Source of the DNA: Pigoraptor vietnamica
Taxonomy: Eukaryota; Opisthokonta; Filasterea
NCBI GenBank assembly: GCA_943704525.1
Contig: CALSCQ010000943.1
Coordinates: 1-28,145, forward strand
Length of the DNA stretch: 28,145 bases
Reading direction: 5' to 3'
Part shown: positions 1,107 through 27,568 of the stretch, in pieces
Layout: the number at the start of each line of letters is the position of its first letter
Position numbering within the stretch: position 1 is the first letter of the stretch
Translations under genes and position numbers: made by a program
Notes under the pieces: model-generated
The model's input: only the letters and a program-made list of their open reading frames with translations
What the model was told of the DNA's origin: nothing
The model's database searches: none

Positions 1107-4100
1107 CACTCACCGTCCACCGCCATCATCGCACCACCCGCACTCTGGTCGCGCGTTGCAGGACGCGCAGTCCGTCAAGTCCGCACACACATCGTTGCAC
1201 GCCTTGGGGTCGTCGTAGAAACGGACGCACTGTCCGTACGCCGCCACCATCGGGTAGGTCCAGCTATCCATGCACATGCCAACAGACTCGCACCACATGC
1301 ATGCGCTCGTACTGCTGAGGCACGCGTCGCAGCCGACCAGCGCGCTGCACGTCGTGACCTGCGCAATTCAAGATAAGAATCCAAGTAAGATAATGCAACA
1401 CGTTGCGGATTTGCGGGTTTGCCTGGGGGGAGGGACGCGAATGAGACGGGACACGCGGTGGCTCACCGGTGGAATGTCGTTGTTGCACTTGCCGCCATCC
1501 GACGACAGACGGCAGGTCGGCCGCGCAAGGCAGTCGGTCGCATTTTTGCGGGAGCACGTGAGGTCCGTTCCGCCTGTGACAAACGACGTCAGAACGGCGC
1601 GAAAGCATTTGAGGGACAGTGACAACAAACGCCTCTTCTGCCAACAACAACGCGTAACGCCCCGTAACTAATGCCCACCTTGCGTGGCGCAGGCGAGCTC
1701 GTTGCTTAGGCTGCACCCGTGCGGGTCGGAGGCCAATCGGCATATCTGCTCCTTCGGGCACCACTGGCACGTCCCGAGAGGCACCTCGGCGGCCGTTTGC
1801 AGCGAGTTGGCAAACTTTGCAGTGTTCGTGCACGTGACGCAGCTCGTGCGCGCGAGGCACGGGTCGACCGTGCGCAGGGACGCAAGGGGAGCGGCCGGCG
1901 GAGAGGCGCACGGGTCCTTAGGGAACACGTGCAGCCACGCGGCAACGCAGGCGGGAGCGCCGCCAGTGCACGAACGACAGAGGCCGCCGGTGGGGTTGTC
2001 GCAGGTCGCCAAGCCTGGTGCAAGCGCCGTGCAGTTTGCTGCGTAGAAATCTCGAGACGGTAAGCGACAAGGCACCAAAGGCCGCACATTGCGAGCGATC
2101 AATTCCGCAAGGTACGCACGCGCCCAACAGGCAAACTCGCGGAGGGTGCAGCACAAAAGGGGTACCCACGCAATGAGAAACGGACAGCGCCATCGATCGC
2201 AGAACCATCGAAACCGCCGCTCACAACGACCGAGCTGTCGGAGGGGTCCAGCGCCGTCGCATACCCAAAGCGACGCGTGCCAAATGCGCCGTTCGCGTAG
2301 GCGGACCATACGTCGCCCACTGGAGTTAAGGGGCAAGGTACGGTCAGGCGATGCAGTTGTTCACGTGTGAGTGGTGATGCACATGAGTGCGTGCATGTGC
2401 GAATTTCTTTGTCAGTGTATATGTGTACACATGTGCGAGTTTGTGTGTGCGTGGGTGTGGGGATGTGTGCAATCGAAGAACAACTCACATATGTCGTACA
2501 CGTAAGCGTCCGGCGAAAAGCACCCGTCTGCGAACCCTGTGGCATAGCCACTGCCGCCGAGTGCGAGAACCATGTCACCCAGCAGAACGGCGCCGTGCAA
2601 ATAGCGCGGCTTGGGCGACGCCTGCAGCGAGCACACACACATGCGATTGTCAGTTGGAGGCATCCCTTCCCGCGCATACGAACACAGCGCCAGTAGGATA
2701 GTAAAATTACAAAAACCGGGAGAAAGTCAGACATTAACCTTGAGCTGTCTATAGGAGCGTGACGTCAGCGATAGCGCGAAGAGGTCGGTGGATGTTTCGG
2801 ACCTGGCGATGAAGGAGCAATGAATTTCATGCGGCGGTACACATCACAACATAGCCGTTTCAATTCCTTCCCCCCCCTCCCCCCCCTCCTACACAACACG
2901 TCCACCTGAACACAACGCTCCCTCCGCCGAAACGCAACCACTCACAGCTGCGCAAAGTTAGGGCTAGGGAAAGGGTTGGGCGTGGGTCGATTGCCACCCA
3001 GCACAAAGATCGAGTCCGTCCCCGGGTGATACACTGCCGCGTGTCCGTACGTGCCACGCATCGCCGCGCCCAACGGAATAAACGTCGTCCAGACACCCGT
3101 CACTGCGCCCCGAAACCAAGTCAGATCATTGCACAACAGACGAGTGACCCAACTGTAAACGCTCGAGAAAGCATCCTTTACAAGTCGACGATACATCGAC
3201 CTATCGCGGAGACGACAGACATGAGCACGAACAGCAAGCGAAGTCGCGAAACCCACGCATGCTGTAGACCTTGACGTTGCGAGCAAAGCCCTTCTGAGGC
3301 CCGTACCCTCCGATCATGTACACCAAAGAACCGACGGCCGTTGCGGTGTGGCCGAAGACTGGCTCTGGGCACGGCTGCAGCAGCGCCCAGCCGCCCGACG
3401 TCGCGTTGTACAGCCACGTCTGTAAGCGAGGGAAAGGTGTGACGCAGACAAAAGTTAAAAGAACGTCGATATAATCCACGGGTGCACGTGGCGCGACGGG
3501 CTGGAGTGACATGTGGGACAGGCAGGCGTTTACACGGATACACACGATTGTTGAAACGAGCGCCCCAGCAACAACGACACATACGCACCTCGTCAGTGGC
3601 AGACGGCCCCGTCATACCGCCGACAACAAGCATCCAGTTCGCGGATGCCGATGCTGCGGTTGCGTGGCTGTGTCGCGGGGACGGCCATGGGACTAGCGAA
3701 TTGGCGGGACCGATCACTGCATCGTACGCGCCCGTCGACATGTTCACCCTGCACGGAGAAGGACGGGGTTAGGGAAGGGCCCCGTCGGGTCGCGAAATGC
3801 AGCGCACAGCTGGCAACGAGAGAAGGCGCATGTGCCGCACACGCGCGTACGGCACACTAACAGCTGCACGAAGACATATCCGCACAAAGTTGAATAACGC
3901 CATCCACGCACCTCACGAGCGATCGCAGGGGCTCGTAGTCCACCGACATTCCCCCAAATATCCACAGCGAGGGCCCGCCAGGAAACGACCCTCCCGACGC
4001 ATCCCCTTCGATCGTTCCGCTCGGGAGGGTGCCCGGCGCAGACAGCACGACGGCCGAGTGTGCAAAGCGCGCGAGAACGCCCAAGCCGTCCACGGTGGGC

Positions 4101-5114
4101 ACGTTTGAGCGGAAAAGCCACTCCGGAAGGGACGCGTTCGTGACGGGCGAGGCCAGCATGCGTGCGGCGAGTGCGCACCGCGACAGCGCGTCGGGCTGCG
4201 ACAACATGGAGGCCCTCAAGGAAGAGAGTTTGGCGAATCGACCGGCCTCGGAAAGGTCTCCTGCCGAAGCAAGGAGGGACGGACGCGAACGCACGTTGCG
4301 GCGAGCGATGGCAGCGCACCCAGTGAGCTCCGCCGACGAGGCCGCACGAGTCCACGCGCCGAGATTCGCCGCGACACTGCACGATTCGCCTGCAGAAGTA
4401 TGCAAGATTATATGGAAGGAAGAGCACGACATGGGACTTTCGTACATTGTGCAATCGCAAGACTGTCGTATAATGAGAGTGCATCGCACATCGACGAGAG
4501 CACGCACCGGCGTATCCAGGCGCGCAGTTGCACCCGGCATCGGACACGCAGGCGCCATTGCCTGAGCAATTGGACGGGCACACCTGCGCAGAGTAGCCGA
4601 CAGCCATTAGTTACGGCACGCAAATTCGCGCAACTGTGCGTGTGTCGGTGTGTGTTTGTATGTTGGGAGGAGGGAGAACAGAAATTCGCGCAAGTGTGCG
4701 TGTCGGGGTGAGGAGAGAGCAGAAGGCGACAAACGGAGAGAAATACCGCAAGTGTGCGTGTGTCGATGTGTTCGATGTGTGTGTTTGAATGTTGGGAGGA
4801 GAGAACAGAAGGCGGCATTCTTACCGATTGCTCGCATCCCAGGCCAATGTACCCTGCGTTGCACGTGCACAACCCAGAGTGGCATGTTCCCCGGGCGGAA
4901 CATCCAAGCGGACTGCGATCGCAGGGGATGTTACACCACGGCCGTTCCGAAAGAATTGTAACAGGTGTGTGCACAGGCGCGAAAACGGATCTTCCACGCT
5001 CACAGACACACACATATCTCTAGCTCGCAATCGAGAGTACCGGTGTACGCAAGCAGCGCACAAAAAACCTCTCACACACGGGCACATCCGCATACAGGCA
5101 CAGTGTGCAGACAT

Positions 5115-6761: not shown

Positions 6762-9707
6762 ATGGATGACAGCGCCGCTATTCTGTCTGCCGGCGAGGCC
6801 GAAGCGTACATTGCGAGCCTCGAGTTCATCCAGCTCAAGGACATTGGCGGACAGCGGTGCGTTGTTGTAGGCGTCTTCTTTTGGATGTGTACCGCACACT
6901 TGCTAGCCTCTCAGCCCTCGTTTCCTTGCGCGTTTGCGCCCCTCCAATTGGGTGCACGTGCTCGGATTGACAGAGAATGCGCAATCTTGAAGCGACTTGG
7001 TTGCTTTGGTCTCAATCTCACGCTCGTACAGATGGCTCCGCCAGCACGAGTACCTCGAGAAGCTGAACATGCAGGCGCTGCTCAACGCGCGCGCCCAAAC
7101 GGACGAGTTTGTCATGGAGTTGTTCATCTCTCTCGACAAGGTGTGCGTCTGAGAGAACAGCTGGCGTCTGACTCTCTCGTGTGTATGCTTGTCTTCCTCG
7201 CACGTGTGACACAAGGGGCGGCTGTCCGTCGCTGTCTGCAGTTGTGGACCCAAGCTCACTTTCTAGCCGTATGTCGTTCCCAGATCCCCGTCCTCGTGGA
7301 AAACCTCGTCTGCATTGAGATTTGGAAGCAGAAGGTTCTTCCACTCCTCTACGAACTCAAGTTTGCCGAGGAGAGCACGATCACGCCCTACATGACGGTG
7401 AGCGCGGTTTGACCGTGTGTATTGTCGCCTCTGAACTGGCGTTGCACGTGTGAGAATTTCGCCTCCCGTTGTACTGACTACGGTTATTGACTCGCCCGTT
7501 GCTGCGTACTCCCGTGTGCGCCTCTGTCGCAGATACACCACGAGGCGGTCCTCATGAATCTCCTCGAGACCATTCTCTTCCACCGCTCCGCGTGCGAGTC
7601 GGCCGGCGACTCGCTGCTTGAGCTGGGCGACTACTGCTATCGGAGGCTGATAGAACTGAGCTCCCTGTGGGTGTGCGCGATGTGCGTGAGATTTTGCTGT
7701 TGGTCTTTTCGCTTCGCTCTGTCCGCCTCTGTGTGGCTTTTATTTCGTTCGTGTGCGTACGATACCGTGCTTTGTCCGGACATGCATGTGCACTTTGTGT
7801 GTGTGTGTGTATTATTGTGGATGGGGCTGGTGAAATTGCTTATTTTTTATTATGCTGGGTGTGTGCCTAAATGTGCCCTGCGTGTTATGTGTTCGTGCGC
7901 AGAAGCGATGCCCCGGACGAGGACGACGGCAAATCGGCGAAGGATTCCGCGGAAAAAATGCTCAAGATGTCGTCGGAAGACGTGAGTGCGCCCACACGCG
8001 CCATACAAGCAGAGACATCCACTCACACCCCTTCGCTGTTAATTGGACGAGAATTTTTCTTAGCAGAGTCGATGAACACCCGCCCGTGTGTGTGCTGATC
8101 CGACAGCTCTCCCTCCCCGCAGCAACTGAAGCAGCAGGCGTCCAAGGTGCGCCTCGACATTTGCATCAAGGCCGTCTCCGTCCTTCGCTACATGAGCGAC
8201 CACATTGAAACGCTGCCCGTCAGCGTCGTTACGCGGCTACTCAAGACCCACGGTGCGTTCGCGTGTGCCCTGTCGCGATGGCGTGCTCTGCTCATGTTCC
8301 GCCGTTGTTCGTGTTCGCCGTTTTCTCGGCTGTGTGCGTGTCTGTGTGGGCTGTTCTGCGTATTTAAATTTTGCAGTGTATGGACTCCACCCAATCGATG
8401 TCGACTCACTTATGCGGCATGCAGATGTTATTGTTGCGCTTGTGCCTCTCGTCGAGCGCCCGCCGTGGCTGCGAATTCGCCCCGGTGGCAAGATGTTCAA
8501 GTACATTGACGGTGTCTGGACGGAGGTTAAGGGTGGCGACCGGCTGAAGCTGTCGAAAGCCGAGGCACAGGTGTGGCTTGCGCTGTACAACTTCATGTCG
8601 GACCCCGAGTGCCGCCGAAAGTACGAATTCAACTCGCACAACAAGGGCGAAATTCTCAAGGTGAGCGGCGTGCATGTCGCATGTCGTTGCGTGTGTTCTC
8701 TCTCACTGTGTCTGTGTGCGTGTGTGTGTTTATTCGCCAAACCTCTCACCTTCCCCCCTTGCAGCTGCGCGCATTTTTCAACGAGGTGCTTGTGGATCAA
8801 CTGCCGGTGCTCGGCGACCTCCAGCGGCAACTCGAACAACTCGCCGTGGTGGATCCCCCTCTGCCGCAGTCGTCTCTCGTGTTGGAGCAGGTGCGAATAT
8901 GCTTTGTGCGCCACGTGGCGACGATATCCTTTTTCCCTCTTCGACGTGTGTGTGGCGTGCTGTGCTTCGGGTGTGCCGTCTGTCCGCTCGCTCTATGGAA
9001 TATGCTCGAAAATCACATAGAGACGAGCATAACAACCCTAACCCTTGCACGATGCCTGACCGTCCCACACTCCGCACAGGTCCCCGAAGTCCGCGAGCGC
9101 ATTCTCGCTGAGAACAAGGGCCGTTGGGCGGACATTGCCAAGCACCAGAAGGAGAAGATCTTCACCATGTCTCACGAGGAGCGCGTGGAGCATGCAAAGA
9201 GGTTGGTCGTCCCTCGCTGGCCTCGATGGGGCAATCGCTGTTTCACACGGGCCTCTATGTCTCTTTTCGCACTCTCTAATTGTGTATGTGTGTGTCTGCT
9301 GAAGTGTGCGAACAGTTGTGTTTGTGTGTGTCGGCTGAAGTGCGCGAACAGTTGTGCGTCTGTCCTACCCTCCTTCCCACCGTCGCCATGCCCGCAGTGT
9401 CGGAGTATGTTGTCTGTCGTGGCCTCATTCTCACTCGCCCACATCTGTCGAATTCCGCAGGTTGGCGGCGACGTACAACTTCGACGCCATCGAGAAGATG
9501 CTGCCGACGGACCCGAAGTGCGCGCAGTGTGGGGAGACGGGCATGAAGCGGTGTTCGCGCTGCCAGAACGAGTGGTATTGCGGGCGCGAGTGCCAGGTGA
9601 AGCACTGGTCCAAGCACAAGGACATGTGCAACCTGCTCAGCGCTGCAAACGCACAGCAAGCGCCCAAGAATGGCGTGCAACCGACGGCCGCAATCAAGGC
9701 GCTGTGA
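6762..9707 (+). CDS. ZMYND10: ZMYND10-like MYND-type zinc finger protein (axonemal dynein assembly factor)
   Basis: Ten exons: 6762-6856, 7032-7140, 7284-7397, 7533-7666, 7903-7981, 8123-8252, 8425-8660, 8765-8890, 9080-9201, 9461-9707. Phases match throughout; total 1392 nt, 463 residues (human protein about 440). The ATG at 6762 aligns with the human N-terminus (PGEAE there, SAGEAEAY here). Stretches close to the animal protein include [74 protein letters not shown] and [13 protein letters not shown]. The C-terminal MYND finger has all ligands: C402, C405, C413, C416, C422, C426, H434, C438, followed by a short tail. In animals ZMYND10 works in the cytoplasm with HSP90-type chaperones and LRRC6 to assemble axonemal dynein arms, and its loss causes primary ciliary dyskinesia. 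A charged, lineage-specific linker (exon 7903-7981, Asp/Lys-rich) replaces a variable linker of the human protein. Introns are 104-259 nt and often TG-rich. Confidence 0.95.
9284..9355 (+). repeat. Two-copy direct repeat in ZMYND10 intron 9
   Basis: Two copies of an approximately 35-bp unit (TG-rich lead, then GCTGAAGTG, YGCGAACAGTTGTG) lie in tandem within the intron 9202-9460. They differ at a few positions. Confidence 0.75.
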
Positions 9708-10655
9708 GGGCGCCGTTTGCCCCTTCGTGCGTGTATGTGCAGGACTTGAATTTTTGCCCTTGTCAAAACGTTTGGAGCCGTGGAGCCTCAGTTGGTGTGG
9801 CGCGTGTGTAACGGGTCGCTTCTGAGAGCCGGTTGTGGAAAATCACGCAATAAAGTGCGTTTTAATTTGAAAATGGGTCTGACCTAATGTAGAAACGCCT
9901 GATACACCAAAAAATGGAATGGGTCGTTTCGCGGTCGTTCTAGTGTGCTTCGCTTCGCGGGAATTGCTCACATCCGACGACAGCTGAAACTAAAGTTCTC
10001 ATGCTCAGGCACGAACATTGATGGAAGGCTGTTTTTCTATGAGCATGTTCTCTGCCAGCGTCGTTGGTCCGGATAGTCTGTCCGTGTGTGTCCGCGGGTG
10101 TCCAGATGCCATCCGTAGCCGAACCCGGATTCGAGCCGTGCAGTGGTGCATCTTGTGTGCGTCTGTGAGAATGGTGTGTCAGCTGTGTGCGTTTCGGTGA
10201 GGCTGGTGCGTGTGTGTGCCCGGCTTGTTCGCGTGCGTTTCCGTGCGTCGTCTGTGTGCGCTATGTGTCGGTGCGTCTGCGCGCTGTACAGTACTGAGCT
10301 GGAGTGGTGCGTCTGTATGTGCGTTTGGAATTTCCGCTGCGCGTGGTGCGTCCGTGTGTTCCCGGCCGGCCGTGCTCGCGTGGTCTCTGTGCGCTTCCAG
10401 TCCGCCGCGTAGCGTGTGTGTGCGCCGGTGCGTCTCGGCATGTGTCAGGCTCAGTTGCCGGCCGGTCCCCGAACGTCCCGGCAACACGACTGCACGACGG
10501 TGACGCAGACGTTCGTCACTGACGACGTTATGCGCACAAGTGGCTGCATTTTCTCAGTTGGATGCGCGCAGAATTCGAATATGGCCTCGGCGTTTTGAGA
10601 AAGTTTGGCGCGATTCGTGACGTCATCGGTTCGACCCCTTCTGCCGGCGCCGTGG
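9708..10655. other. Intergenic region downstream of ZMYND10, TG-rich
   Basis: After the ZMYND10 3' end the sequence is unique to about 10020, then from about 10080 to 10440 strongly biased to TG/GTGCG on the plus strand without a clean repeat unit. ORFs on both strands here are low-complexity (His/Thr/Arg or Cys/Val-rich) and not convincing. No gene is supported. Confidence 0.6.
9849..9854 (+). terminator. Poly(A) signal of ZMYND10
   Basis: A canonical AATAAA lies 142 nt after the ZMYND10 stop codon in an AT-richer stretch, in the correct orientation. Confidence 0.7.
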
Positions 10656-11487: not shown

Positions 11488-11937
11488 GCACACACATACA
11501 CACACACACACACGGTACACACGTATGTGGACAATGACATGCACGCACACCCACATGCCCCGGACGATCTATGCCGTTGCAACTATGACGTCGCCGAGAG
11601 ACTTGCGTGGCTTGCTAGGCGCGCGAGGTATCGAAGCCAGTCGTGCCTCCTCGCCAATCTCCCTTCTCTCCCACGTTCCATCTCCCCTCTCCACAAACTC
11701 ATCTAAAAAGACGGGTTTTTCGACTTAAGTTCCTCTCGCTCCTTGTAACCCTCGCTTACTTCCAACGACACCGATTCAGCGACCCTCTAGCATCCTGCTA
11801 CAAAGTGGGTTGGATGGTTATGGGTACCATTGGCTGTGTCAATCTCTTGGGAGCGTAAGATCTGGCGTGCATCGTTATTGACCACTTCGCGCCTGCACTT
11901 TTTTTTTTCGTCAGGCCGTTTCTTCGCACAAGCAAAC
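11101..11937. other. Intergenic region with CA-rich repeat block upstream of the HHE gene
   Basis: The interval holds the CA-rich block described separately and about 420 nt of unique sequence before the HHE start. A nine-T run near 11901-11909 lies just upstream of that start. No TATA element or splice structure can be assigned. ORFs through the CA block (Thr-His or Val-Cys repeats) are repeat translations. Confidence 0.6.
11314..11516. repeat. CA-rich repeat block with a 44-bp-period duplication and (CA)21
   Basis: A 34-bp segment beginning AGCCCGGCCACACACGCACG at 11341-11374 recurs identically at 11385-11418, a 44-bp period including CA-rich spacer. It is followed by a pure (CA)21 array at 11443-11484 and more degenerate CA. 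Confidence 0.9.
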
Positions 11938-12723
11938 ATGGCGACGCACGGACACCAGGCGCAGCAGCACGGCGGCCGCAAGGGGCACACGGACGCCATC
12001 GAGATGGTGCTCGAGGACCACCGGAAGGTCGAGGAGCTCTTTCGCGAGTTTGAGAAGAACGAGAGCAACAACGAGTCGAACAAGCACGTGCTCAAGATGA
12101 TCATGCAGGAGCTCCTCGCGCACACGTTCGTCGAGCGCGCCCTGCTGTACCCCGAGATGCGCAGCATGAAGGTCATCGACGAGTCGCTCTCGGAACACGC
12201 CGAGGAAGAGCACACCGAGGTGGAGGAGATGCTCTACAAGCTCGGCCAACTGGAGGACGGCGGCCGGCACAAGGGCGGCGAGAAGAAGGGAGAGCGGGCC
12301 GGCGAAGGGGACGGCCAGGACGAGCAGCAGCTGAGCACGCTCGCGCAGAAGCTGTTCGCGGCCGTCCGCAAGCACGTCGAGGAGGAAGAGAAGGAGATGC
12401 TGCCGAAGGCTCGCTCGAAGATCCCGAAGGAGCGCCTCGAAATGATGCCCGAGGCCATCATGCAGCTCAAGAAGACGGCGCCGAAGGACCCCGTCCCGCC
12501 CAAGAAGCTCCTCGAGCTCGTCGAGAAGGCGAAGAAGGAGGTCGCCAAGTCGATGGGCGGTGCCGGCGGCGCGGGCGGTGCGAAGGCGGGGAAGGAGGAG
12601 GAGGAGGGCATGCAGCAGCAGCAGGGTGGGGACGCTGCCGAGGAGGGGGTCAAGACGCGTCACCAGGCCAAGACACGCGGCGGCGCGCGACAGGCCGGCA
12701 AGCTCGCCGAGCCCGAGCAGTAG
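11938..12723 (+). CDS. Hemerythrin/HHE cation-binding domain protein
   Basis: An intronless 261-codon gene. The start ATG at 11938 has A at -3 and G at +4; in-frame sequence upstream lacks an ATG. The pattern of a four-helix hemerythrin-like domain is visible: H28 in LEDHRKVEELF (helix 1), H62-x3-E66 in AHTFVERALLYP (helix 2), H87/H92 in EHAEEEH (helix 3), and H146-x3-E150 in KHVEEEEKEMLP (helix 4). Such ligands bind a di-iron centre that in relatives binds O2, NO or peroxide, or acts in iron sensing. Residues 106-130 form a charged Gly/Lys/Glu loop between helices 3 and 4. The tail from about 205 is low-complexity: GGAGGAGG, Glu runs, QQQQ, then a basic stretch. No signal peptide, so probably cytosolic or nuclear. 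The lack of introns beside intron-rich genes could mean retroposition or transfer from bacteria, where similar proteins are common, but codon use is as GC-rich as the neighbours. Confidence 0.88.
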   Translation: MATHGHQAQQHGGRKGHTDAIEMVLEDHRKVEELFREFEKNESNNESNKHVLKMIMQELLAHTFVERALLYPEMRSMKVIDESLSEHAEEEHTEVEEMLYKLGQLEDGGRHKGGEKKGERAGEGDGQDEQQLSTLAQKLFAAVRKHVEEEEKEMLPKARSKIPKERLEMMPEAIMQLKKTAPKDPVPPKKLLELVEKAKKEVAKSMGGAGGAGGAKAGKEEEEGMQQQQGGDAAEEGVKTRHQAKTRGGARQAGKLAEPEQ

Positions 12724-13870: not shown

Positions 13871-16800
13871 ATGGAAGAGAGTGATGGTCCTGCGTGCAAC
13901 AGCGCCCCCGTCGAAGCGTGCGCGCCCGCACCGTCTCAAGCAGCGGCAGAGGCTGCGGTGAGTCGCTACGTCCTTGTGACAGTTGCGCTGCCATGCGTCA
14001 TGTCTCTGGTCGTTTTGTCTTCATAACACGAGCGCGTGACTTGCCTTCGCACTCCGCAGCGCTCACTCGCTAGTCCAACAGACGGCGCGGCCAGCTCCGA
14101 GAACAATAGCCTCAAGGCGTCCATCCGTGAGTATCGCACCGCTGCACTGCCATTCCACGCTTTAACGAGAGGACGCCGCGCTGACTCGGTCTCCTGTTTG
14201 CATTCTGCGCAGGTCGCAAGAGCATGACGGAACACGACGGGATCGCATCAACCGTCGGCGGTGTTGGGCATGCGTCGAACGAACACGCGCGTGGGGCTGA
14301 GGAGGCGCACTCTGCGCCCGAATCGAGCGTCCCGCCATGCAGCAACGCGGTCCATTCAAAGGGCGACGCCGGCTGCGACGAGATGGCCGAGGACAAGCCG
14401 CCGTGCTCTGCCGCTGCCGATCTTACGCTTGCGGCCGCCGGTGACCCTCACGTGACCACACCCATCCCGCAGCCTCGCCAGAGCTACGTGGGCATCCCTA
14501 TGGGCGTCGATCCCGAGCCGTGCATTTCGGACGCCGTGTTGCAGAGGCAGGCCTCGCGGGCTTCGGCGTACCGCCCGTCGCGCCCGCAGTCGATAACCAA
14601 CGCGTGGATCTCTTCGTACGTTAACATCCCGGCCGGCGACTCTCGCCGAGAATTGAACCACGCCTCTTCGAACGCGCACAAGGATGAATTTGAGCTGTCC
14701 ACCGACGGGAAGAAGGTTCCTGTGGGTCGCCTGTGCGCTGGCATCCCGCTCCGCGCCGCCGTGGCTGTCTTCGTCCTCCTCGTTGCAGCTGGAATTGCCG
14801 TCGGCGTCTCGTCGCTGTACTGGGGGAGCGCGACCGTCGTGTCGGAGTCCTCGTGGATCCACGCGTTTGTGACGCCGAGTGGCCAGCTCCTCCTCACCCC
14901 GGGCGTGTTTGGACCTCGCTACGGCTACGGCATCTCGAATGCGCTCACGGAGCTCATGTCCACAGACGGCTACGTTGTGGTCAGCGACGTGAAGGTCTCC
15001 CCCTTGTCCTACTATCAGGCGACGGTGACGGGCAACGCGCAGGTGTTCCGCTCGCGTGTGCTGGTGACGCTGTCGTTCCTCGAAAACAGCGACGGGCTTT
15101 ACTACTTTGCGATGACCGGCGCGCTTCCCCATGCGTTCGACTTCGGTAACTTCCCGCAGCTATCTGGCGCCCCGCTGAACATCACGTGCGACGGTGCGTC
15201 CTTCTCCTTCGTCTCTAACATGCTCACCGCCGATGCCGGGGCACTCAGGGTCGCCGGCACCTTCACGTCGACGGCCAACACGACGACGCCTCAACAACGC
15301 GCGATCAATGCGCTCTTCGGGCCCTCTGGAGTCCACGGCGTCGTACCGTTCACGGCAACCGTCAACGCGGGCTCTGTCGTCGTTGTCCCCGACCCGTTCG
15401 TTTCGACAGTGCGCATCACCCCGGCGTATTCGTTCTCGAACGTCAAGCTCGTGCTCACCCCGGCGTCCGACACGCCTGGGTTTGAGGCGATCGTGGCTAT
15501 CGCGGGCTCCAGCAGCGGCGGCCCCGAACTCACATCGTCCAACGCGCGGTACCCATACGCAGTCCTCGGCTCCATCAGCACGACGGGTCAACTCTCTGCG
15601 AGTGGCCCGCTTGTGGGCGCGTCCCCCATCGTCATTGCCAACGGCGATTTCATGGCAACAGGCGGCCACGTCCACTTTGTCTGGACGCACGCGGACGGAT
15701 TCTCCGGCACGGCCAACGCGACGTTCGTGTCGACGTCGTTCGCGGACAGCAGTTCGCACTCGCGTCGGAGCACAGCCGCCGCGCGCGGGTCGCTCTCCGT
15801 CGACCTCTCGCAGCGCCGCATGGCCGACGAGAACCTCGCCGAGTGTCCCCACGCAGACCTCGTGATGAGCGCGGCGACTGTGTCTGACATCGCACTTGCG
15901 CTCGGCATCCGTGACGACATTGTCGCCAGCGTCCCTACGAACTACGCCGATCGGCTCGAGGACCTCCTTGCGGCCAGCCTGATTTCGGCCTTTGTGGGCT
16001 CTGCGCACGCGCTGTGCGGCAGGCTGGAACTTCAGGGGCGCATGTCGTCGGAAATCATCGGGGAGTCGACGTTGTCGATTCGCCAGGCGCCGAAGCTCAG
16101 CGCGAGCTCTCTCCTCTCGGTGCTCATGGACGTGCGCGGCCCCCGCGTCCAGCTCGCGACGGGTATTACGGTGCCCTTCGAGCAATCCGTTTCGCTGGCG
16201 TTGTCGGCGCTGAATTCGCGGGACAGGCTCGCCACCTTCGGCTTTGGCGTGTCTGGGATGCGGCTTGCCGCGCCTCTCGACGTGACGGCCGCGCTGGGAG
16301 ACGTCGTGCACGACGCGCTTCACTCGGACCTCGACTTCACGTGGGCGTATGCGCAGTACGGCGGCCGCGATTTTTCCTTCATCTCGCTGGTTTCGTCGAT
16401 GATCGATGCCACCCTTGCGTACCCCGTCGCGGCAAACGCCACTCTGGCCAACGTAGCGAGCGTCGAGACGTGGATCGCTGTCACGCCGACGTCGACCCTC
16501 GACGTGTCGAACTACTTTCACCTCGGGAACTTTGCGAACGAGCTCGTGGCGGGCCCTCCGGCGGTCACCGTATCCACGCGGCACATGGTGGCGTCCGCTG
16601 CCGCTACGTCGATCACCCCCGCGCTCCGCTGGGACGACGTGTTTGACGCCGCCACGCTGGCACTCAACGCAACGTGGACCCTGTCCGTGCCCACCGCGGT
16701 GAAGGCGTCCGTTCCGTTTGCGAATCTGCTCACCTCTGTGTCGGCGTGCGCGCTTCCCTCCCTTGACGGAGCGCGGCTAAAGGTCTTTCTCGGCGACACG

Positions 16801-19800
16801 CTCACTTTTGGCGACATCGCGTACCTTCTGGCGGGCAACCTGCGGCCGGAGCCGGGCGTGCCCGTGTCCGGACTTGGCATTTCGTGCTACAACGCGTCGC
16901 AGCACCTGTTCTCGGCGGCCTACGACGTCGCATACGTCGCCGGTCGAACGCCACTCTTGCCTATTTCGAACGCGTGGGTGCACGTCGCGGGCGTCCTTCG
17001 CGGCAGTCGACTCGCTAAATTGCTCGGCACGGGGTCCTTTCAGGTGCCCCTCAGCGCCGGCGACGTCAGCGCACCGCTTCAGGTCTGCGTGCAGCAGCTG
17101 GCACGCGCTCTCGACACGCTCCCGGCGTTCATCGGCCGATTTGCGCTACGCGTCCCCGTTGGCGAGCCTCTCGTGCTCTCCAGCGTCATCGCGGACATTG
17201 CAGGCGCGCTCGGGGGCAGCGGCAAGCGAGTCGTCGCCCTGAACGGCGTCGTCGTGAGCCTTTCTGCGCTCACGCACGACATCCTCAAGTCGCTCGGCGG
17301 CGCCAGTTCGCGCGCAGACGCACCGAGCTTCCTCACTTCCGGCGGCATTTCCTTTGAGCTGCCGTGGGCGAATGTCGTCAGTGGCATCGCGGTCGCGCCG
17401 TGGGGAAGCGCCGCCGTCCAGTGGCCGCTCGTGTCTCTTGCGCCCGAAATGCTGACGGTCCCGACGTCATCTGTGCCGCTGATGCAAGCCGTTCTCGCGG
17501 TCCTAAAGGGCATGACGCCGTTGGTGGCAGCACCCGCGCCGCCCTCGCTCGCGGCGAGTGGGTCGACGTTCAGGCTGGTCGATGCCTTGGGAACGGCGCT
17601 CGCTACGGCCGCGAATATGTCTTTCGACATGCCTCACGCGACGCTGGATATCGCCGGCTTCGGCAACGTCGCGGTGGATCTCACGGACGCCTTCGCCCCA
17701 CTCGTCGCGGCGATGCCCCTGCTCACCGCGAAGCTCGCCAATTCGGACCTCGTGACGCTGAGTGGCGGCTTTGGTGCCGTCTTTCCCGCGACGCTATCGC
17801 TGGCTCCCCAGCTCAAGGCATTTGAGGGCGCTGTGCCGGCGTCCACGGAGGGGATCTTCGTCGGCCGCGTCGTGTGCGACCCTTTGGGAGGCACGACGGA
17901 CGTCGGCGGTCTTCTCTCGTTTGCGCCGGTGACGCTGGCGGACGGGTCGACGATCTCCGGCGTTCACTTTGTCGCGACGCAGCAGGGAGTGAGGCCAACG
18001 CCCGCGTTTGCAAGCCTCGCGTCGCTCCCCGTGCGCATCCAGGCCTCGATGGGCCTCGCCACCGTTGACTTTGACTGGCGACACTTGGCCGTCGCCGGCG
18101 TCGCATCGTCATCGGGGGTCGTCAAGCTGACGAGCGCCACGGGCGCGGAATGGGAGCTGACGGTCGCGGAATCGACCGCGCTCGTCCTCGCGCCTTTTGG
18201 CATGTCCGCGACGCTCGACCCGACGTCGATGGCCATCAGTGGCGCACTCTCGCTGGGCGTGGTTCTGCACGGGCAGCCGCGCGTCGCCGTCGAGCTGGCT
18301 CTCCCCGTCACGAAGTCTGCGCAGGACGGCTGCGTTGCCCTCACGCCCGCGCCGTACCCCGAGGCGATGTCTTCATCGTTCAATGCGACACTCACGGCAG
18401 ACACTGTCGTCACCAGCGCCGTTCCGGCCGCTTCGGTACCGATCAGCCGCCTGCTCGTCCGCGATCTGATGCACTCTCCGTTTCACGGGACAGCGGCGTC
18501 CTTCTCGCCGAAGTGCGCGACGTCGGCCGTAAAGGCGTCGCTCTCCAACGCCATGTTCGGCAATGCCTCGGCACTTGTCCAGACGTTCTTTTCCCCGTCT
18601 TGGCCGGCGATCCTCGACAGCGCGGCGCGCACGCTGGGTGCCCGCGCCAACCCGATCTCCGCGTCGCATGTGCCAGGCCTGCAGTGCTCGGGACAGCAAT
18701 TCCTCGACGTCGCCGGCGCGGTCAACGCCATGAACGCCTCGGTGGGTGCGGATACTGAGAGGGCCGCGCGCGACCTTCCGCTCCTCTCCTTCAAGGCATC
18801 GTCTGCACGTCAGCCGCTCGTCGTTGCGCTGGAAAGCCTCGCAAGTGCCGCAAGCGCCTCTGCGACTGTGTCTTCGTTCCCCGTGTGCTTTGGCCCGAAT
18901 ATCACGCTGTGCTGTGAACTGGGGGACGTCGTCGCGGCTGTTGTCGCTGCCGTGCCCAGGACTGCCGCGGCGCTCGCCGTGCCCGTGCTCGCGGGAAGCC
19001 TGGAGTACTACTATTACGTCGTGCCGGGCAACGGGTGGACCCTTGCCGCGTTCCCGAACACGCCGTCGTTCTACTCTGGATTTCAGCTGCGTTCGCCGCT
19101 CCTCACCGTGTCGACGGCGGTGTCTGTGACCAGCCTGACGCACCTTGGTCCCTCCGCGCCGCGCCCGTCTGCGCTGCTGTACAGGGGGCTCAACTTCCTC
19201 GGCGGCATGAGAGACTCGAACTTTGCCGAGCTGCAGAACCTCGGCAAGTTCTCTGCGATGGGATTGAACGGGTTCACGGGCGACGCACCTGCATCCCGCT
19301 CGCGGCGCTCTCTGTACGATGACGACGACTTTGGCGTGGGCGGCGTATCGCACCATGGCGTGTCGCACTACGGCATTGCGCGACGCGACATCTCGGACTT
19401 CACGGCGGAGTTCAATGACTTTGAAGTTTACATTTCGTCGCTCGTCTCGGAGGTCGGCCACGAATTCGCGCTGCTGAAGGGGTCCCCCGCGTTCCACAAC
19501 GGGACGTCCGGCGCATCCGTCGATCTCCCTCCGCTGTATCTCGGCAGCACGGCGCTCATGACGAACATCACGGTGACTGTCGGCGCCGAGCTCCCTTTCT
19601 TCTCGGCGACGGCGCTGCTGTCCTTCTACAACGCGAACGCGGTCGTGAACGCGACGAGCAACTCGACGCACGGCCCCGTCATGAACACCACGAGCGGCCC
19701 CGTCGTCGTCAACGGCGAGCAGCCCGTCGTCGTCTTCCAGATTGTCGGCAACTACACCAAGACGTCGATTGCGTTTGGGGGCCTGACGGCGCCGGGGACG

Positions 19801-22800
19801 ACGGTTCCCTTAGGCACGGACTCGAACAACCGGACGATCGCGTTCCTTCGCAACGCTGGCGTGTCGATGTACTACGCGCCGAGGAGCGCCGGCAAGGAGT
19901 TTGACCCAAGCGACCCGAGCAGCTGGGACCCGACGAAGAAGCCCACGAACGAGCAGTCGAATTTCACCGTGACGGTGTCCGCCGAGTTTGTCTTCCCGCA
20001 GCAGGGCCTGGCGCTTCCCGTGCAGGGCGCGCTCAACTTCGCCACCAGGTGCCTGCAGCTCAGCACGGGGCTCGACTTCAACCCGTCCAACTTCTCGCTC
20101 TTCGACCTCGTCAACGCCGTCAGCCCCGGCGCTGCGGACGACGCGCCGGAGTTTGTGCGCGATTACATTCTCGGGTGGGCTTTGCAAGACATCGAGTTCC
20201 ACGCCGACGTCATCGGCTGCCCGCAGACGGCCATTTCCGTCTCTGCGACGATCAGCAACGAGTTTGTCGGCGGCGACGGAATCGTGCTCGGCGCCCGCTT
20301 TGCGCACACACCGGCGACGTACGGCGACGTGCTGACGACGACGCTCGCCGCCGTCCAGAGCAAGGGATGCACTGAACTCGACGTGCCCGTCACCGTCGGG
20401 ACCCTCGACGTGCCCTTCTGGCAGGCGGTACATTACCTCGTCAACGCGTCTATCGCCGAGTTCAACCTCATCGCGCTGCCGTTCAACCTCACGGCCGTCA
20501 ACTGCACGGGCGAGGACGCGCGGAACATGACAGAGTGCGGCAACCCGTACGCGCCCCCTCCGACGCCCGTGGACGGTGGTCGCCTCTCGAGCGAATCGGT
20601 GCACGTCTCGCTCGGTTACGTTGTCGAACAGATGATAAGCGGTCTGGAGGTCGTCTACCCGACGGACCCGCCGACCGTGTCGATCATGAGCTGCTCCTCA
20701 CGGTACCCCAGTTCAGGCACCAAGACGCTCCTGAGCCTCGCGAAGGCGATTATGGCGTGCGACGCGTGCGGCGCAACGCTCGCTTCGACGACGGTGACGC
20801 AGCCGCTGGCGCTGTGGCAGTACGCGGTCGTGATATCGCCGTCGGGCAACTGGGGCGGCGTCGGGTCCATGGGGCTACCGGACGAGATCAACTCGATGCG
20901 CCTGGACGAGGTCACGCTGGTATTTTCGAGCACGTACCAGAAGGTCAACCCCAACAACATATCGCGCAACGCCATCTTCGCCAACTTGCTCGCTTACAAG
21001 GGCTTCAACATTTTCGGACAGCTTGACCTCGGGTCGACGCCGGAGGGACAGACGATCGGCCACATGACGTCGCTCGCCGCTGTCCAGCTGTTCGCGTACG
21101 TCGGCTACGTCGGCGTCGGCACTTACCGCAAGTTGATGTTCGTGGGCACGGCGAACATCGCGCGCCCGATCAAGCTGAACCCGACAACAATCCTCAGCAA
21201 GGCGTACGTGCGCATCGAGAACGTCTCGCCTTACTTCAACGTATACGGCGTGATGACGTTCACGCTCGATAAGGACAGCTGGTGGGCCGTCAGCGTCAAC
21301 GGCATCGTCACAAGCAACTCGGTCCTCGTCGAGGGGTATCTTGAGCGCTCGAGCAACTCGACCGATCGCTCGCAGGTCTACGTGGATCCCTCTGGCACGC
21401 TGACGTCGCTGCCGACGGGGTTCGGCAAGGGCGTTGCGCTGATGGGCGCCGGCATTGGGCTCAACTACTCGACATCAATGGTCAACGGGGAGAAGGTCCC
21501 GTACGTTGACGTGCGCGCGAACGTCTCCGTTGCCGTGGGCGAGGCGCTGCTGACGTTCGTGGGCGACGCGGGCGGTTCAGAGTACAACTTTTCGGTGTCG
21601 TTCTCTGCGACGGTGACGGACATCAACACGCCATCCGGCGCCGGGTGGAGTGTCGCAGACATCCTCGAGCTTATGTGCGGCGACTTGCCCGAGTTCCACA
21701 CGACGCCGCTTAATCAAATTCTCGGCTTTCTCAGGGGTATCAGCATCGTTGAACTGTCTTTCATGTTCACCTACTCGACGCAAGGGATACAGCTCGGCGC
21801 AAGGCTGCAGTTGAACATAGACGGCGTGCTTTTCTACCTTATGGTCCTCGCGCAGGACTACAAGCCGCCGGCGTCGGGCGGAAAGACGCTCAACGCCGCC
21901 GGGTGGTACTTCACCTTCGTCGTCCAGTTCCAAGAAATCGGCGCGTCCAATTACATATTCGGCGGCCTCAGCGCCGCGCTCTACACGGCCGCGGGTGCGC
22001 CCGATCGCAGGCGCGACGCTGGCTTTTACGACGCGACAGGCGGTCGGTCCGGCGCTGTCTCGAGCTCGTCTTCGTCCGGCCCGCTCGGCTTTATCATGAA
22101 CTCGCGCGCGAATCCGGTCATACTGCTGACGAGCTACACGGACCCGTCGATCCTCGCGACGCTGACGTTCCTCGGGCCCACAGTGATGTCGATGGCGGGT
22201 GCGATGAAGAGCGGCGTCAACATTGCCGCGACGATCCCGCTCACCGGCGACGGGCCTCTCGGGACGATCGGCAGCCTCACGCACGTCGACAAGGTGTTCG
22301 TGTCGCTGGCGGTGCCCCCGACGATCTTCCCCATCTCTATCCAGGTGGCCCTCGGCTTCAACAACGTCTCAGTGATAGACGGCTTTCTCTATCTCGAGGA
22401 GGGCGGGCTGTTCATGATCATCCCAAAGGACCTCGCCGCGACGGAAGTCGGCGTCCAGGCGAAGGTGCAAGTGATGCTCGGCAGCCAGCAGTTCATGCTT
22501 GCGGGAAGGTGCGTGTGCGCGTGTGTGTGTCGCGGCCTGTACGTGTCGCGTGCTTGCGTTCGTCTTTTGGTTTGTCAGCGTTCATTCACTGTCACTCCCT
22601 CTTTTCATATGCTGGGTTTCAGTGTCAGCATTCATTCTACGTCCACTCGCGCCCCCTTTAATTGTCATGTGTGCTCGTGCTCACCCGCGGTTGCCGCGCA
22701 GCCTCGGTGTCTCTGCGCTGATGGTGGAAGGTGCGATCTCCCTGCTTCCGCCGGGCATTACCGGCCCCTTCGGCCTCAACGGCGTCCAAGTCGTCAGCGC

Positions 22801-24680
22801 GGGCATCGACCTCGGACTCGGCTTGGAGGAGGAGTTTCTTCCCGTCAAATTCGAAATGGCCGGACAGGTCGGCCTGTCGCCGCCGGCGCCCTTCCCTCAC
22901 GAGGAGTACTCGTTCATGGTCAACGTCAACCTCGTGGACCCGCTGCAATCGGCGTTCCTCTTCGATGCCGTCAACCTCAACCTCGAGGGCATTGTCGCGA
23001 CGTTCTACCCGCCCGTCACCGAAGTTTGGCCATCGTGGCTCGCGCTTACGGCTACGCGCTTTGAGGTCGAGGTGAACCCCGGCGCACCGTTTGCCTTCAA
23101 CGGCGTCTCGTACCCGCAGGGCCTCTATGTCAACGTGACCGACCTCAATTTCGGGCTCATCAAGCACATGAATGTCCTCGTGGAGATCAACACGCAGATG
23201 GTCGAGTTCAAGGCGTCGATGGACCCGGTCGAGTTCGCCCTCTTCTCGCTCGAGGGGTACAACGGCTCGCCCGGCGGTCCGCTTGTGTCTCTCGTCGTTC
23301 CGCTCACGGCGGACCAAATGTCGCAGTTCTCGTTCCTGCTGGAGGGGTCGGTCACGTTTTTTGGCCAGTCGATGCAGGCGTACGTCTCTATCAACGAGAC
23401 GGGTCTGATCTTCGCGATGAACGCCAAGTTCTTCCTCTTCTCGCTCGACATGTGGTGCGAGGCGCTTATCGGCGGGTCTCCGGCGCCTGCCGGCACGACG
23501 GACACGGCTGAGATCACCGACTTCTCCTTCTACGCCGACCTCAACATCACGATCATCCAGTGGATGGAGCAGCAGCTGCCCGCGCTCATCGACGAAGGTG
23601 CGTCTCACTCTGCTGTGCATGTGCATAATGTGTCACTGTGCAGTTTTACCTGCTAGTTACGCTGACCTTTCGACCCTTTCCCGTACAGCTCGCATGACGG
23701 CCGTGTCGGCGCTCCGTTCTGCGCAAGCGACGGTGCAGTCGTGGGAGTCTGCGGTCGACGCAATCACGTACGAGATCAATCTGAGGGAGAAGGAGATCGA
23801 GGACGAGATACAGTCGTCGCTCCAGGACGCGATGTCGGCCGTCGCAGAGGCGCACACGAAGGTGCAGAGCCTCCTCGGGCAGATCAAGATTGCCGAAGCC
23901 GAGTACCACAAGCACGACAACTTTTGGGGGTGGCTGGACGGCGAGGCAGAGGTGTGTGCGAGGGAAGAGCACATGCGCCTCTTGTTGAGTCCCGTTCGAT
24001 GCGCCTGTGTGTGTTGTCCTCTTATAGTGTAGCGGGCTGTTTGTCGCTGTGCTAATGGCTGTTCTTCGCTGTGTGCTGACGGCTGTTCTTCGCTGTTCAG
24101 TTTTACGGCATCGAAATCGGCGTCCTCTACGCCTCATATTACATAGCGGAGGGTGTCTTGAACCTCGCGACGGACTTCCTCAAGGGCATGTCCTCCGCTG
24201 CAAACATCTTCGCCGAGCTCGACCCCGAGTTGCTTGCGCTCCGCTTTGGGCGGGGCGTTCTCCATGGCTTCTTGGACCTTGCGTACGTCGCACTCGAGGC
24301 TGCCGGTGGGGTGCGATGTGATGCGTGTGACCGCAGGCGCGCACGTGTCATTATCATGGGCTAACACGCTGCTCTTGCGGTGCTTGCGCAGAGGGCGTCG
24401 TCAACGGCGTGATGTATCTCGCAGAGAAGGTGATCGAGGGCATTCTGGACGTCTTTCGCATCAATTGGGTCAAGGTGTGGGGCAGCTTGGCGCAGATGAA
24501 GGCGGGGAATCTCGCGACCATCCAGATTGACTGCGTGCTGCTCGGCCTCCACCTCACGCTCACGCTCAATCTCGACTTTCTCAACCCGTGGGAGATGCTC
24601 AAGGAGCTCGCACAGAGGTGCGGAGCAGTGTCTGTCGCCCTGACCGTGTATGTTTGTGTGTGTGCGTGTGCGTGTGTGCT

Positions 24681-24748
<68 letters not shown>

Positions 24749-24883
24749 TGTGTGTGTGTGTGTGTGTGTGTCCGTGTGTGTATGCGCGCACGTGCGTGCG
24801 TGTACCACTGTGCGAGTACTTACCTGGTTGTCCGTGCGTCGCTTCGCAGCATCATCAACTCCATCCAAGAAGACTTCAGTTGA
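13871..24883 (+). CDS. Giant type II membrane glycoprotein of unknown family (3357 residues)
   Basis: Eight exons: 13871-13957, 14060-14126, 14213-22508, 22702-23597, 23689-23951, 24101-24305, 24392-24617, 24850-24883; total 10074 nt with matching phases and a TGA at 24881. The first ATG (13871, G at -3 and +4) precedes two small exons that splice in frame into the main 8296-nt exon. Residues 1-230 are polar and probably cytoplasmic; one membrane segment spans about 233-253 (AVAVFVLLVAAGIAVGVSSL) with no earlier signal peptide, so type II topology is likely. The remaining about 3100 residues are rich in Val, Ala, Ser and Gly, look beta-strand-rich, contain few Cys and carry dozens of N-glycosylation sequons (NITC, NATSNST, NLTAVNCT). 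Three polar Arg-rich linkers interrupt it: HSRRS near 569, RSRR at 1747-1750 (furin consensus) followed by DDDD, and DRRRD at 2650. The C-terminus changes character: a coiled-coil-like segment (about 3118-3185), then long hydrophobic/amphipathic helices to the end. Ectodomain modules share a weak V-P-[FLIV] motif. I recognise no known domain; adhesion, coat or scale roles are guesses. Confidence 0.85.
14725..14815 (+). other. Predicted single transmembrane anchor of the giant glycoprotein
   Basis: The codons for residues about 223-253 encode a basic/polar flank (KKVPVGR, then RLCAGIPLR) followed by about 20 uncharged, strongly hydrophobic residues and then a polar extracellular-type sequence. 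Positive charge on the N-terminal side supports N-in, C-out orientation. Confidence 0.75.
22509..22701 (+). other. Intron 3 of the giant gene, open in the exon-3 frame
   Basis: Donor GTGCGT at 22509 and acceptor GCGCAG ending at 22701 join AG to C (Ser), restoring frame to LGVSALMVEG. The intron is 193 nt (not a multiple of three) and has no stop in the upstream frame, so retention would continue into exon 4 in the wrong frame and stop at 23064. Confidence 0.8.
24684..24770 (+). repeat. Compound (GA)n-(TG)n microsatellite in intron 7 of the giant gene
   Basis: A pure GA array of 63 nt (24684-24746) passes directly into a 24-nt TG array (24747-24770), inside the intron 24618-24849 and about 66 nt after the donor. 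Confidence 0.97.
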
Positions 24884-25758
24884 GGCTGAGATTGGCTTCA
24901 ACGTCAACCGCGTCCCCGCGTGTTTCCTGTTCGATGTTTGTTCTTAATTTTGTCGCAATGAGTTGCGATCTGAGACAATGAAAGCCGGCACGGTCGTTCA
25001 AACTGCCCGGCGCTCTGCTCCATTCCCAGCCTCTGTGCACCTGGCGCTCCAACCAATTGAATGTCGAGCAGCCCTTCGAGATGCGCCTTCGGCCACTCCA
25101 GAACACGGGCGAGTTGGCGGCCGGGCTGTAATCGATTGGATTCAGTTTAATTCGCACCTCACTGTTCCATATTCACAATAATATCACTCACTCAACCACA
25201 GCACAGTTCAACAGAGTATATCGGCGGAGGAAGTACGTTTTATACCCTTGGCCGGCGGTCATTTGACATGAGCAGCCCCTTTGGTCCTTAGCGCGCGTGT
25301 TCACGGCATTCGTCCGTCTGTCCGGGTATGGCAGTCGGCAAGCCGTCGGCCCATCGGACTGCACATCGAGTCGCCGCCGGTAAGTGCCTACAGTAGTGCC
25401 GCAGCAAGTGCAGAGATGCGCCGCGTCTATTGAACCCGTCCTGGCAGATACCATGTCCTGCCTTCGGAAGCCGTCAGTCCGACACGCCGCGTTGCGCGAC
25501 CGCCGGGCCAGTGGGATACTGTCAATGCCTCATCGGCGAACTCCACCAACGGCGACGACGGCCGCGTTGCGCCCGAACAGCAACTACGCACGCCGGCTGT
25601 GCCGTGTGTGCCGTGACTGACGTGAGAGTGTTGTCCGGCAGAGTGTGTGAGTGCGTACGTGTGTGGTGGGTGAGTGTGTGCCGGTGGCCGTGCTGGGTGG
25701 GTGTATGTGTGTATGCCCTCCGGCCCAGCCCGACGGAGTTGCCGGAACGCTGTGAGTT

Positions 25759-25783
25759 GCTGCAGTCGAGTACGTACTGCAGC
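25759..25783. repeat. 8-bp inverted repeat with 9-nt loop
   Basis: GCTGCAGT at 25759-25766 and its reverse complement ACTGCAGC at 25776-25783 flank CGAGTACGT. It could form a small hairpin; function unknown. Confidence 0.5.
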
Positions 25784-25825
25784 CCGAGTCCGAATCCGGC
25801 GCCGATCCGGTGAACTTGTTTATGA

Positions 25826-25852
25826 GGCCCGGCCGACTTTCCGGACCGGGCC
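25826..25852. repeat. GC-rich hairpin
   Basis: GGCCCGG (25826-25832) pairs with CCGGGCC (25846-25852) around a 13-nt loop in very GC-rich intergenic DNA. Confidence 0.5.
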
Positions 25853-26207
25853 GGCGGCGAGACTACGACACACCGAGCCGGGCATTGACGGCTGAGACAA
25901 CGGCATATTCAAGTAACACCGTCGGCTCGGCGTCAATTGAGCAACGGCTATGCCAACTTCACTGTCCCGCCACATTCAATCCGAGTACTCGGGCCGGTCC
26001 GCCGTCTCGCCGGTCCCGGAGCGGCCGCGGGCCGCCGCAGCCCGCCGGGCCCGCCGGCCGCCGGCGACTGAGGTCCACGGCCGGGCCACTGCGCGCCTAC
26101 GTCATGCCGCCGACATTCGGAGCAGAAAGAATCGTCGAAGGGTAATCACATGATGTGGGACCAACGGCTAATGCGCAAAGCCGTGTGGCACGGTGTCAAT
26201 GGGTGGC

Positions 26208-26306
26208 ATTGGCTAGGACGCCAGAAGGAGGAGAGCGTGTGAGAACGCGCGATGATTGGCTGGAAAGTTTGAAGTAAGCCGTTGATTGGGTAACCGTCCG
26301 ACCAAT
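26208..26306. promoter_or_regulatory. Cluster of four CCAAT boxes (possible NF-Y promoter)
   Basis: ATTGG occurs at 26208-26212, 26255-26259 and 26285-26289, and CCAAT at 26302-26306, all within 100 nt; two are spaced exactly 30 nt apart. This is a known arrangement for NF-Y-bound promoters. An AT-rich stretch starts immediately to the right. No gene start can be tied to it. Confidence 0.45.
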
Positions 26307-26309
26307 GAA

Positions 26310-26610
26310 AATTGACAATGTGCGTCACAGGAAGTAATAATGCCCGAAGAAATTGGATGTGGTACTTTTTTCATATAAAATTAATCTTTTTGGGTGGGGT
26401 AGAGGTGAAGAATTTCGGTGGCTTAATTGTCCTACTCGCCAAAATTATCCAGTGCCAATATGTTGGAGAAACAAAGAAATATAATTTACGTCTTAAATAT
26501 TATTTGTATTGAAATTCAATGTGGAATAAATAATTTTTTACACTGCCAAATTTTCATTTTGCAATTTATCAAATTTATTTTGTCGTTGCGAACAAATAAG
26601 AACCGAGAAC
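26310..26610. other. AT-rich patch in GC-rich genome
   Basis: About 300 nt of strongly AT-rich sequence with AATAAA on the plus strand (26525-26530) and on the minus strand (TTTATT, 26574-26579). It may be an untranslated tail of an unseen gene, a degraded transposon or a promoter region. No terminal repeats were found. Confidence 0.45.
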
Positions 26611-27568
26611 GAGCGCGCATGTACGCGCGTCCTGCGCCGCGTTCCTCCTACTGACACGCCATACGACGCTCCCTTGACAATGAGACGGACAACAACCCCG
26701 ACTCGCACGAAACACTGCGCGCGTCTCCATGTCTTCTGCATCCTGCGGTCATTGTACGAATTCGCACCCGTCACCACCGTAACGGCAAGCCGACCATCGT
26801 GGGCGTTCGGCTGAGTCTGCTGTGCAACCCGAGCCAAGGCCGCGAGCGGATGCGAAACGAAAGCCGAGTCACTCACGTTCAGTTTTCTTCTCTTTGGCAG
26901 CACGGACGCTGTGAGGTGAGGCATCCACTCCCTGTGCACATTTGCGTTCACGCGAGTTCGTTTCGTGTTGTGTGTGTCGATGGGGTTAGAAGTAATTGAG
27001 AGTCTGTCAGCAGTGCTGGATTTTAATGTCCGGATTAGTCGGCCTTGTCGACGGTAGGACCGACGAGATTTCCAATGCTTCAGTCAGTACAATGTTGCCG
27101 ATTCTCTCTGATGTTGCATGCCCCGCGACCTCCTGTGGTGTATGGGTGCTCGCGGGAGGTGAAATGTCAGCCCGTTGATGTGGCTGGTGACTGAAGCTGA
27201 TGTGCCGGTCGCTGGGCTCCAGACGCCGAGTACTGCCGTTCCGCAGTATTGAACGTGCGACAGTCGCGTCAACAGACGACTCTTACGGCTATTCGTCTTC
27301 ATTTACGACGCGTGAGTGCATCTTCCCGTCTCACGTCTAGCCGGCTCTCGTCAGACATCTCTCTTGCTGGCACACTTCCCTGGCCATCGGCGTTGCTTAA
27401 CTTAGTCCGCATCGGAATTCCAGTCGTCACCGCGGCGGCACCTCTTGGCCAGACCTTTGCCGCCGTCACGAGTATCGTTGTATTCTAAGCGACAGACTCG
27501 TTCGCGCTCCTGCTACTCCGTACACGTGCCGCGCCACACTCGGCGCCGGCAGAGGGCAATCATTGGCC

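Follow-up and report, generated by a model that had tools for sequence, protein, structure and literature searches.

A family of giant proteins in Pigoraptor vietnamica with the predicted architecture of type II membrane glycoproteins

What is a protein of 3357 residues that resembles no recognisable family, and is it a real protein at all? The question is raised by a locus of the filasterean Pigoraptor vietnamica. The window analysed here is a stretch of DNA of 28,145 nucleotides, and at 13871–24883 on its plus strand lies the model of an eight-exon gene whose product a sequence-only reading had taken for a type II surface glycoprotein.

Gene structure and a full-length paralogue

All exons of the model lie on the plus strand. 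Translation starts at the ATG at 13871 in exon 1 (13871–13957, residues 1–29), and exon 2 (14060–14126), together with the start of exon 3, encodes a short tail motif, LKASIRRKS. Exon 3 (14213–22508) is 8296 nt long and encodes residues 52–2817, the first and last codons being split; it has no in-frame stop over its full length, against 17–125 stops in the other five frames. It is followed by exon 4 (22702–23597), by exons 5 (23689–23951) and 6 (24101–24305), both of which encode amphipathic helices, by exon 7 (24392–24617), and by exon 8 (24850–24883), which closes the frame of 3357 residues with a TGA stop at 24881–24883. The seven introns measure 86–232 nt, and all seven have GT..AG ends. 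GC3 of the gene is 0.83 overall and 0.59–0.86 by exon; the GC content of the introns is 0.51–0.62.

The strongest support for this model is a full-length paralogue on contig C202, which has 3459 residues and the same eight exons. Exon 1 (87 nt) and exons 4–8 (exon 4 being 896 nt in both) are identical in length in the two copies, and LKASIRRKS is found in both. Over 3328 aligned codons the two genes show 75.5% identity, with a dN of 0.151, a dS of 0.537 and a dN/dS of 0.28. By segment, dN/dS is 0.175–0.336 in ten segments covering residues 258–3357, 0.27 in the membrane anchor and 0.555 in the tail (residues 1–221). Sequons are common to the two proteins in 30 of 36 columns, and cysteines in 23 of 31. 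When the window was compared with 36 of the 53 kb of C202, similar DNA was confined to the gene; outside it there are 19 short translated matches, scattered and out of order. Within the gene, introns are 67.6–84.5% identical over aligned bases (58.7–73.7% when shuffled) and exons 4–8 are 74.1–87.2% identical; because these ranges overlap, identity alone fails to separate introns from exons.

The dN/dS values show purifying selection between the two genes. The model could still be a gene-prediction artefact, made of chance long frames in GC-rich DNA or of several genes joined, and antisense frames of up to 538 codons do overlie the gene. However, an artefact is hard to reconcile with a full-length paralogue that has the same exons and a dN/dS of 0.28, or with lengths that agree between the copies for exons 4–8 but for none of the seven introns, and we consider it extremely improbable. 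Conservation of the paralogue supports one gene and a maintained protein, and the genes appear genuine and maintained by selection. The exact-frame, eight-exon gene of the sequence-only reading is thus confirmed by its GT–AG introns, its open exon 3 and its eight-exon paralogue.

Other parts of the window also gave matches. On the minus strand, 84–905 and 3744–4610 gave between them a match to the laminin/attractin EGF domain PF24973 (1.6e-15) and a teneurin-like EGF stretch that falls under its cut-off (0.00023, 21.6 bits vs 24.3); they are possibly parts of one attractin-like gene. On the plus strand, 11791–12723 encodes a hemerythrin HHE protein (PF01814, 2.4e-13) with a long charged tail. 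The exons at 8196–9811 (plus) look by eye like those of ZMYND10, a dynein-arm assembly factor; a Pfam search with two frames of this region gave no match.

Members of the family and their predicted architecture

Protein searches covering the 32.5-Mb assembly, in which counts are lower bounds, show that the window protein belongs to a family of at least four genes. A third member, on contig C330, was matched by a C-terminal query at E=1.4e-46 in the whole genome and by the whole protein at 5e-101 in a search confined to its own stretch of DNA. Its single frame break may reflect damage or a fault of the assembly. The fourth and most distant member, C393, has 2552 residues in a three-exon model; the true 5' ends of the C330 and C393 models are provisional. 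C330 and C393 match each other at E=2.3e-20 in the whole-genome search. An HMM built from the other three members scored C393 at 4.8e-28 over 445 positions and at 1.7e-4 for the last 67, in a test on 22 sequences that included 20 local shuffles and the reversed sequence, where the best of 21 decoys reached 0.34. A fifth locus, at 24039–27083 (minus) of C1051, is a partial copy of C393 with 94.8% identity over 3 kb of DNA. It adjoins two short pieces matching DNA downstream of the C393 gene, and is probably a rearranged duplication. Near repeats of a VDLxTHDDxSGRQxWR motif, lectin-like by eye, adjoin the C393 family gene (L029:2-526, G000:C393). A pattern for the 3' end of 18S rRNA gave no hit, and no chlorophyll-binding family was matched.

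Hydropathy in the window protein peaks at 2.59 at residue 233, the next maximum being 1.87 at residue 1615, which bears out the single membrane segment noted earlier. The anchor (residues 233–251; 14755–14811, plus) has basic residues on its N-terminal side, predicting an N-in, C-out orientation. One strong N-terminal hydrophobic segment is present in all four members, with maxima of 2.52–3.02 and next-best values of 1.79–1.89. In C393, basic residues (QRK) also follow the anchor, and its orientation is therefore less sure. Beyond the anchor, the window protein's ectodomain of about 3100 residues carries 35 sequons against a shuffled mean of about 19.3–19.5 (sd 3.9), so that its description as sequon-rich holds. 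The excess recurs across the family (35 vs 19.5, 39 vs 23.8, 23 vs 10.1 and 20 vs 7.2; z 3.7 to 5.1). The giant ectodomains are low in K+R (3.1–7.2%), and Ser+Thr makes up 9–22% of the window protein by segment. From the anchor, its basic N-terminal side and the sequons we infer a type II single-pass membrane glycoprotein, both topology and glycosylation being predicted.

The chain changes character along its length. Hydrophobic residues alternate in a beta pattern in residues 258–3110 (z 4.5), whereas the pattern over the last 247 is amphipathic-helical (z 4.1), in agreement with the C-terminus of different character described from the sequence. Alternation exceeds that of shuffled sequences in all four ectodomains (ratios 1.10, 1.09, 1.19 and 1.20; z 3.4–7.3). 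In 100-residue blocks of the window protein it is strongest at 1358–1457 and 2858–3057. A conserved beta-alternating domain occupies about residues 2693–3110 (22135–23581, plus), at the end of exon 3 and in exon 4 with the intron 22509–22701 inside, and a terminal motif some 67 residues long (3291–3357) runs on the plus strand from about 24448 within exon 7 to exon 8. By sequence, the beta domain and the terminal motif are present in four of the four members, including C330 and C393, although the terminal motif of C393 taken alone is weak (1.7e-4). The helical block between them is found by sequence in three of the four. It had been proposed that a family would be defined by homologues that have N-in topology and the helical block at the C-terminus in common. 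C202 and C330 share both. In C393 the anchor recurs, as do the terminal motif and the C-terminal beta domain, but its helical stretch was left unaligned by the HMM.

Short motifs on both sides of the anchor are of interest in view of possible processing and sorting, as RXRR can be a furin site and YXXphi can act as a sorting signal. A furin-like site, RSRR (residues 1747–1750; 19297–19308, plus), lies in a diverged linker and is RARR in C202. C330 has RGRR at 1397, which lines up with RSRR in one alignment but not in a second, and RXRR in C393 is limited to residues 3 and 2416. The window protein has this one RXRR site against 0.126 expected by shuffling (P 0.12), and its nine dibasic pairs are no enrichment over the 6.5 expected (P 0.19). 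Because one site is unsurprising by shuffling, the case for RSRR rests on its conservation in two copies. Contig C269 encodes a proprotein convertase P-domain (E=2.4e-32). A further P-domain match (E=8e-7) lies near 15467–15805 (minus) of C850 in an open frame of 7331 residues, another giant. In the tail, the YXXphi motifs YVGI (residues 143–146; 14485–14496, plus) and YVNI (residues 187–190; 14617–14628, plus) are YVGI and YIDI in C202. The tail is the fastest-evolving part of the protein, yet YVGI, the second YXXphi and LKASIRRKS persist in this pair.

Comparison with known proteins

Two domain-search queries covered residues 53–3357 of the window protein, and no Pfam or NCBIfam domain exceeded its curated cut-off there. 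The lack of a known adhesion, mucin, cadherin or lectin domain, noted from the sequence, is thereby borne out. With Pfam at E up to 10, only DUF3197 (0.15) and DUF745 (0.19) appeared, both under cut-off. The NCBIfam model TIGR03936 matched the C-terminal 541 residues at E=0.00043 and was rejected at 20 bits against a cut-off of 71.9. Pfam searches of the four C-termini listed 17 families at E up to 1, the best being Baculo_PEP_C (0.00011), seen in two of the four members; its match in the C393 piece was rejected (14.7 bits vs 38). So was GDT1 in the N-terminal piece of C330 (0.0046, over the membrane segment; 17.7 bits vs 27). The scanned pieces of C330 and C393 comprised these models apart from C393 exon 2, the last residues of C393 and the end of C330. 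Against PDB sequences, a single-sequence query gave 14 matches at E up to 1 (best 0.081) and a profile query gave two (best 0.0075), none credible; the best of each fell on the helical block. We read the weak PDB and Pfam matches as resemblance of coiled coils or hydrophobic segments. PHROGs yielded no credible match (best E 0.017).

No relative was found in phages with the long frame as query, in plasmids with the last 541 residues, in IMG/VR with three queries (the long frame and C-terminal-region profiles), or in GTDB contigs in one scan with a C-terminal-region profile, each contig scan relying on between two and six short peptide patterns. A literature search returned no title or abstract opening that describes the window protein. 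The claim of an undescribed family therefore stands against Pfam, NCBIfam, PDB, phages, plasmids, IMG/VR and GTDB, and holds only against these resources, which do not include a collection of eukaryotic sequences. The broader picture of a type II giant with no recognisable family is likewise supported, its topology being predicted from the anchor, the basic N-terminal side and the sequons. Some uncharacterised fungal and invertebrate proteins presumably combine beta modules with a coiled coil and an 'FDI...F.V.L'-like terminal motif, in an order that seems similar. In view of these proteins, we have lowered the claim that the family is restricted to its lineage.

Structure prediction added little to this comparison. 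Two AlphaFold2 models made from single sequences reached mean pLDDT values of 30.6 and 33.1, too poor for a fold to be read, and a Foldseek search with the second, low-confidence model, from which we draw nothing, listed 157 matches when E was allowed to reach 10 but none at 0.001 or better. Internal repeats in the window protein were not significant by blastp or hhalign; the best local internal pair scored 66, and the maximum of 400 shuffled pairs was 81. A W-Y-V-x-P-x-G-x-W-like motif seems to be repeated, with two occurrences each in the window protein and C393, by a pattern written after its sighting.

Several known systems come close in layout. Teneurins are giant type II surface adhesion proteins with a furin-like site and EGF, NHL and YD-repeat domains. 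The window protein has a like topology (predicted), a giant ectodomain and a furin-like site, but no teneurin domain in residues 53–3357 (Pfam, E up to 10). Cadherins are also giant surface proteins; classical cadherins have the opposite topology, and the window protein has no cadherin repeat in residues 53–3357 (PF00028, Pfam). In the genome, cadherin repeats gave 47 matches, which are confined to contigs C1328 and C874, and the organism may have very few but very long cadherins. Mucins and repeat coat proteins differ in their tandem or Ser/Thr/Pro-rich repeats, which are absent in the window protein (blastp, hhalign). AsmA/TamB/YhdP and the bridge-like lipid transfer proteins share with it an N-terminal anchor and a long beta-alternating chain; the window protein differs in having no Pfam match, weaker alternation than TamB and enriched sequons.

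Possible roles of the protein

The most likely work of the protein, at a probability that we place somewhat short of even, is that of a cell-surface adhesion or coat glycoprotein. We put this role first, on weak evidence, because the predicted topology, the sequons and the size fit it and nothing found points to an enzyme. Conservation of C202, the sequon excess in all four members, RSRR/RARR, the C269 convertase P-domain and the pair of YXXphi motifs in the tail are consistent with it. The chain would run from a cytosolic tail of about 220 residues through one anchor to about 3100 extra-cytoplasmic residues, in which a long beta-rich ectodomain would lead to the conserved beta domain, the helical block and the terminal motif. 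The YXXphi motifs would sort the protein to the plasma membrane and recycle it from there, and a proprotein convertase would cut at about residue 1750; the N-half would stay anchored, and the C-half may be held non-covalently or released. The C-terminal domain would then meet a partner, which could be the protein itself, another cell, matrix or a food particle. Since no ligand-binding, adhesion or lectin domain was found in residues 53–3357 of the window protein, this function is read from the architecture alone. A Golgi, vacuolar or other lumenal location would be equally allowed.

Some of the same observations would suit a storage or structural precursor, that is, a membrane-bound polyprotein cut up into scale, lorica, theca or extrusome content and having no adhesive role. 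The low K+R of the ectodomains, the RXRR kept in the close pair, the convertase P-domain in the genome and the fairly even constraint along the ectodomain (dN/dS 0.175–0.336) all agree with a precursor. However, structural coat proteins often carry internal repeats and none was significant here, and we regard this role as unlikely, if deserving of some weight. The few dispersed paralogues with their graded divergence could instead be diverging types of a cell–cell recognition molecule used in mating or self/non-self discrimination. In the close pair, none of the ten ectodomain segments is fast-evolving, with dN/dS at most 0.336, which makes such a molecule very unlikely.

A lumenal or extracellular lipid carrier, working like AsmA/TamB or the bridge-like lipid transfer proteins, would have an N-in anchor followed by amphipathic beta strands, hydrophobic on one face, that build a very long groove. 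This layout is the same as that of TamB, which is described as an inner-membrane-anchored protein. The alternation ratio is 1.09–1.20 in the four ectodomains and reaches 1.29 in residues 2693–3110; for scale, it is 1.41 in E. coli TamB, 1.15 in TamA and 0.88–1.03 in six other E. coli proteins. TamA is not a groove protein. The signal thus lies well below TamB, with TamA inside the family range, and is patchy in 100-residue blocks. Moreover, no AsmA, TamB, VPS13 or other lipid-transfer Pfam model was matched in the window protein at E up to 10 or in the scanned C330 and C393 pieces at E up to 5, and the two AlphaFold2 models are too poor to reveal a groove. We consider a lipid carrier quite unlikely. 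The reading is bolder than adhesion or coat; in its full form, also very unlikely in our estimate, the proteins would be a new eukaryotic family of extra-cytoplasmic tethered beta-rich giants that carry lipid along a groove, a functional counterpart of AsmA/TamB with no detectable sequence relation.

A surface adhesion or coat role, which we continue to prefer, would place the window protein among the giant single-pass surface glycoproteins, a known kind of protein. Domain libraries miss giant proteins on the surfaces of protists, and genomes are therefore a poor guide to adhesion, coats and feeding. What is new here is a family: it counts at least four genes, its exon structure is defined in the close pair, and with a C-terminal domain that is conserved and motifs that can be tested it is ready for alignment-based structure prediction and for searches of transcriptomes.
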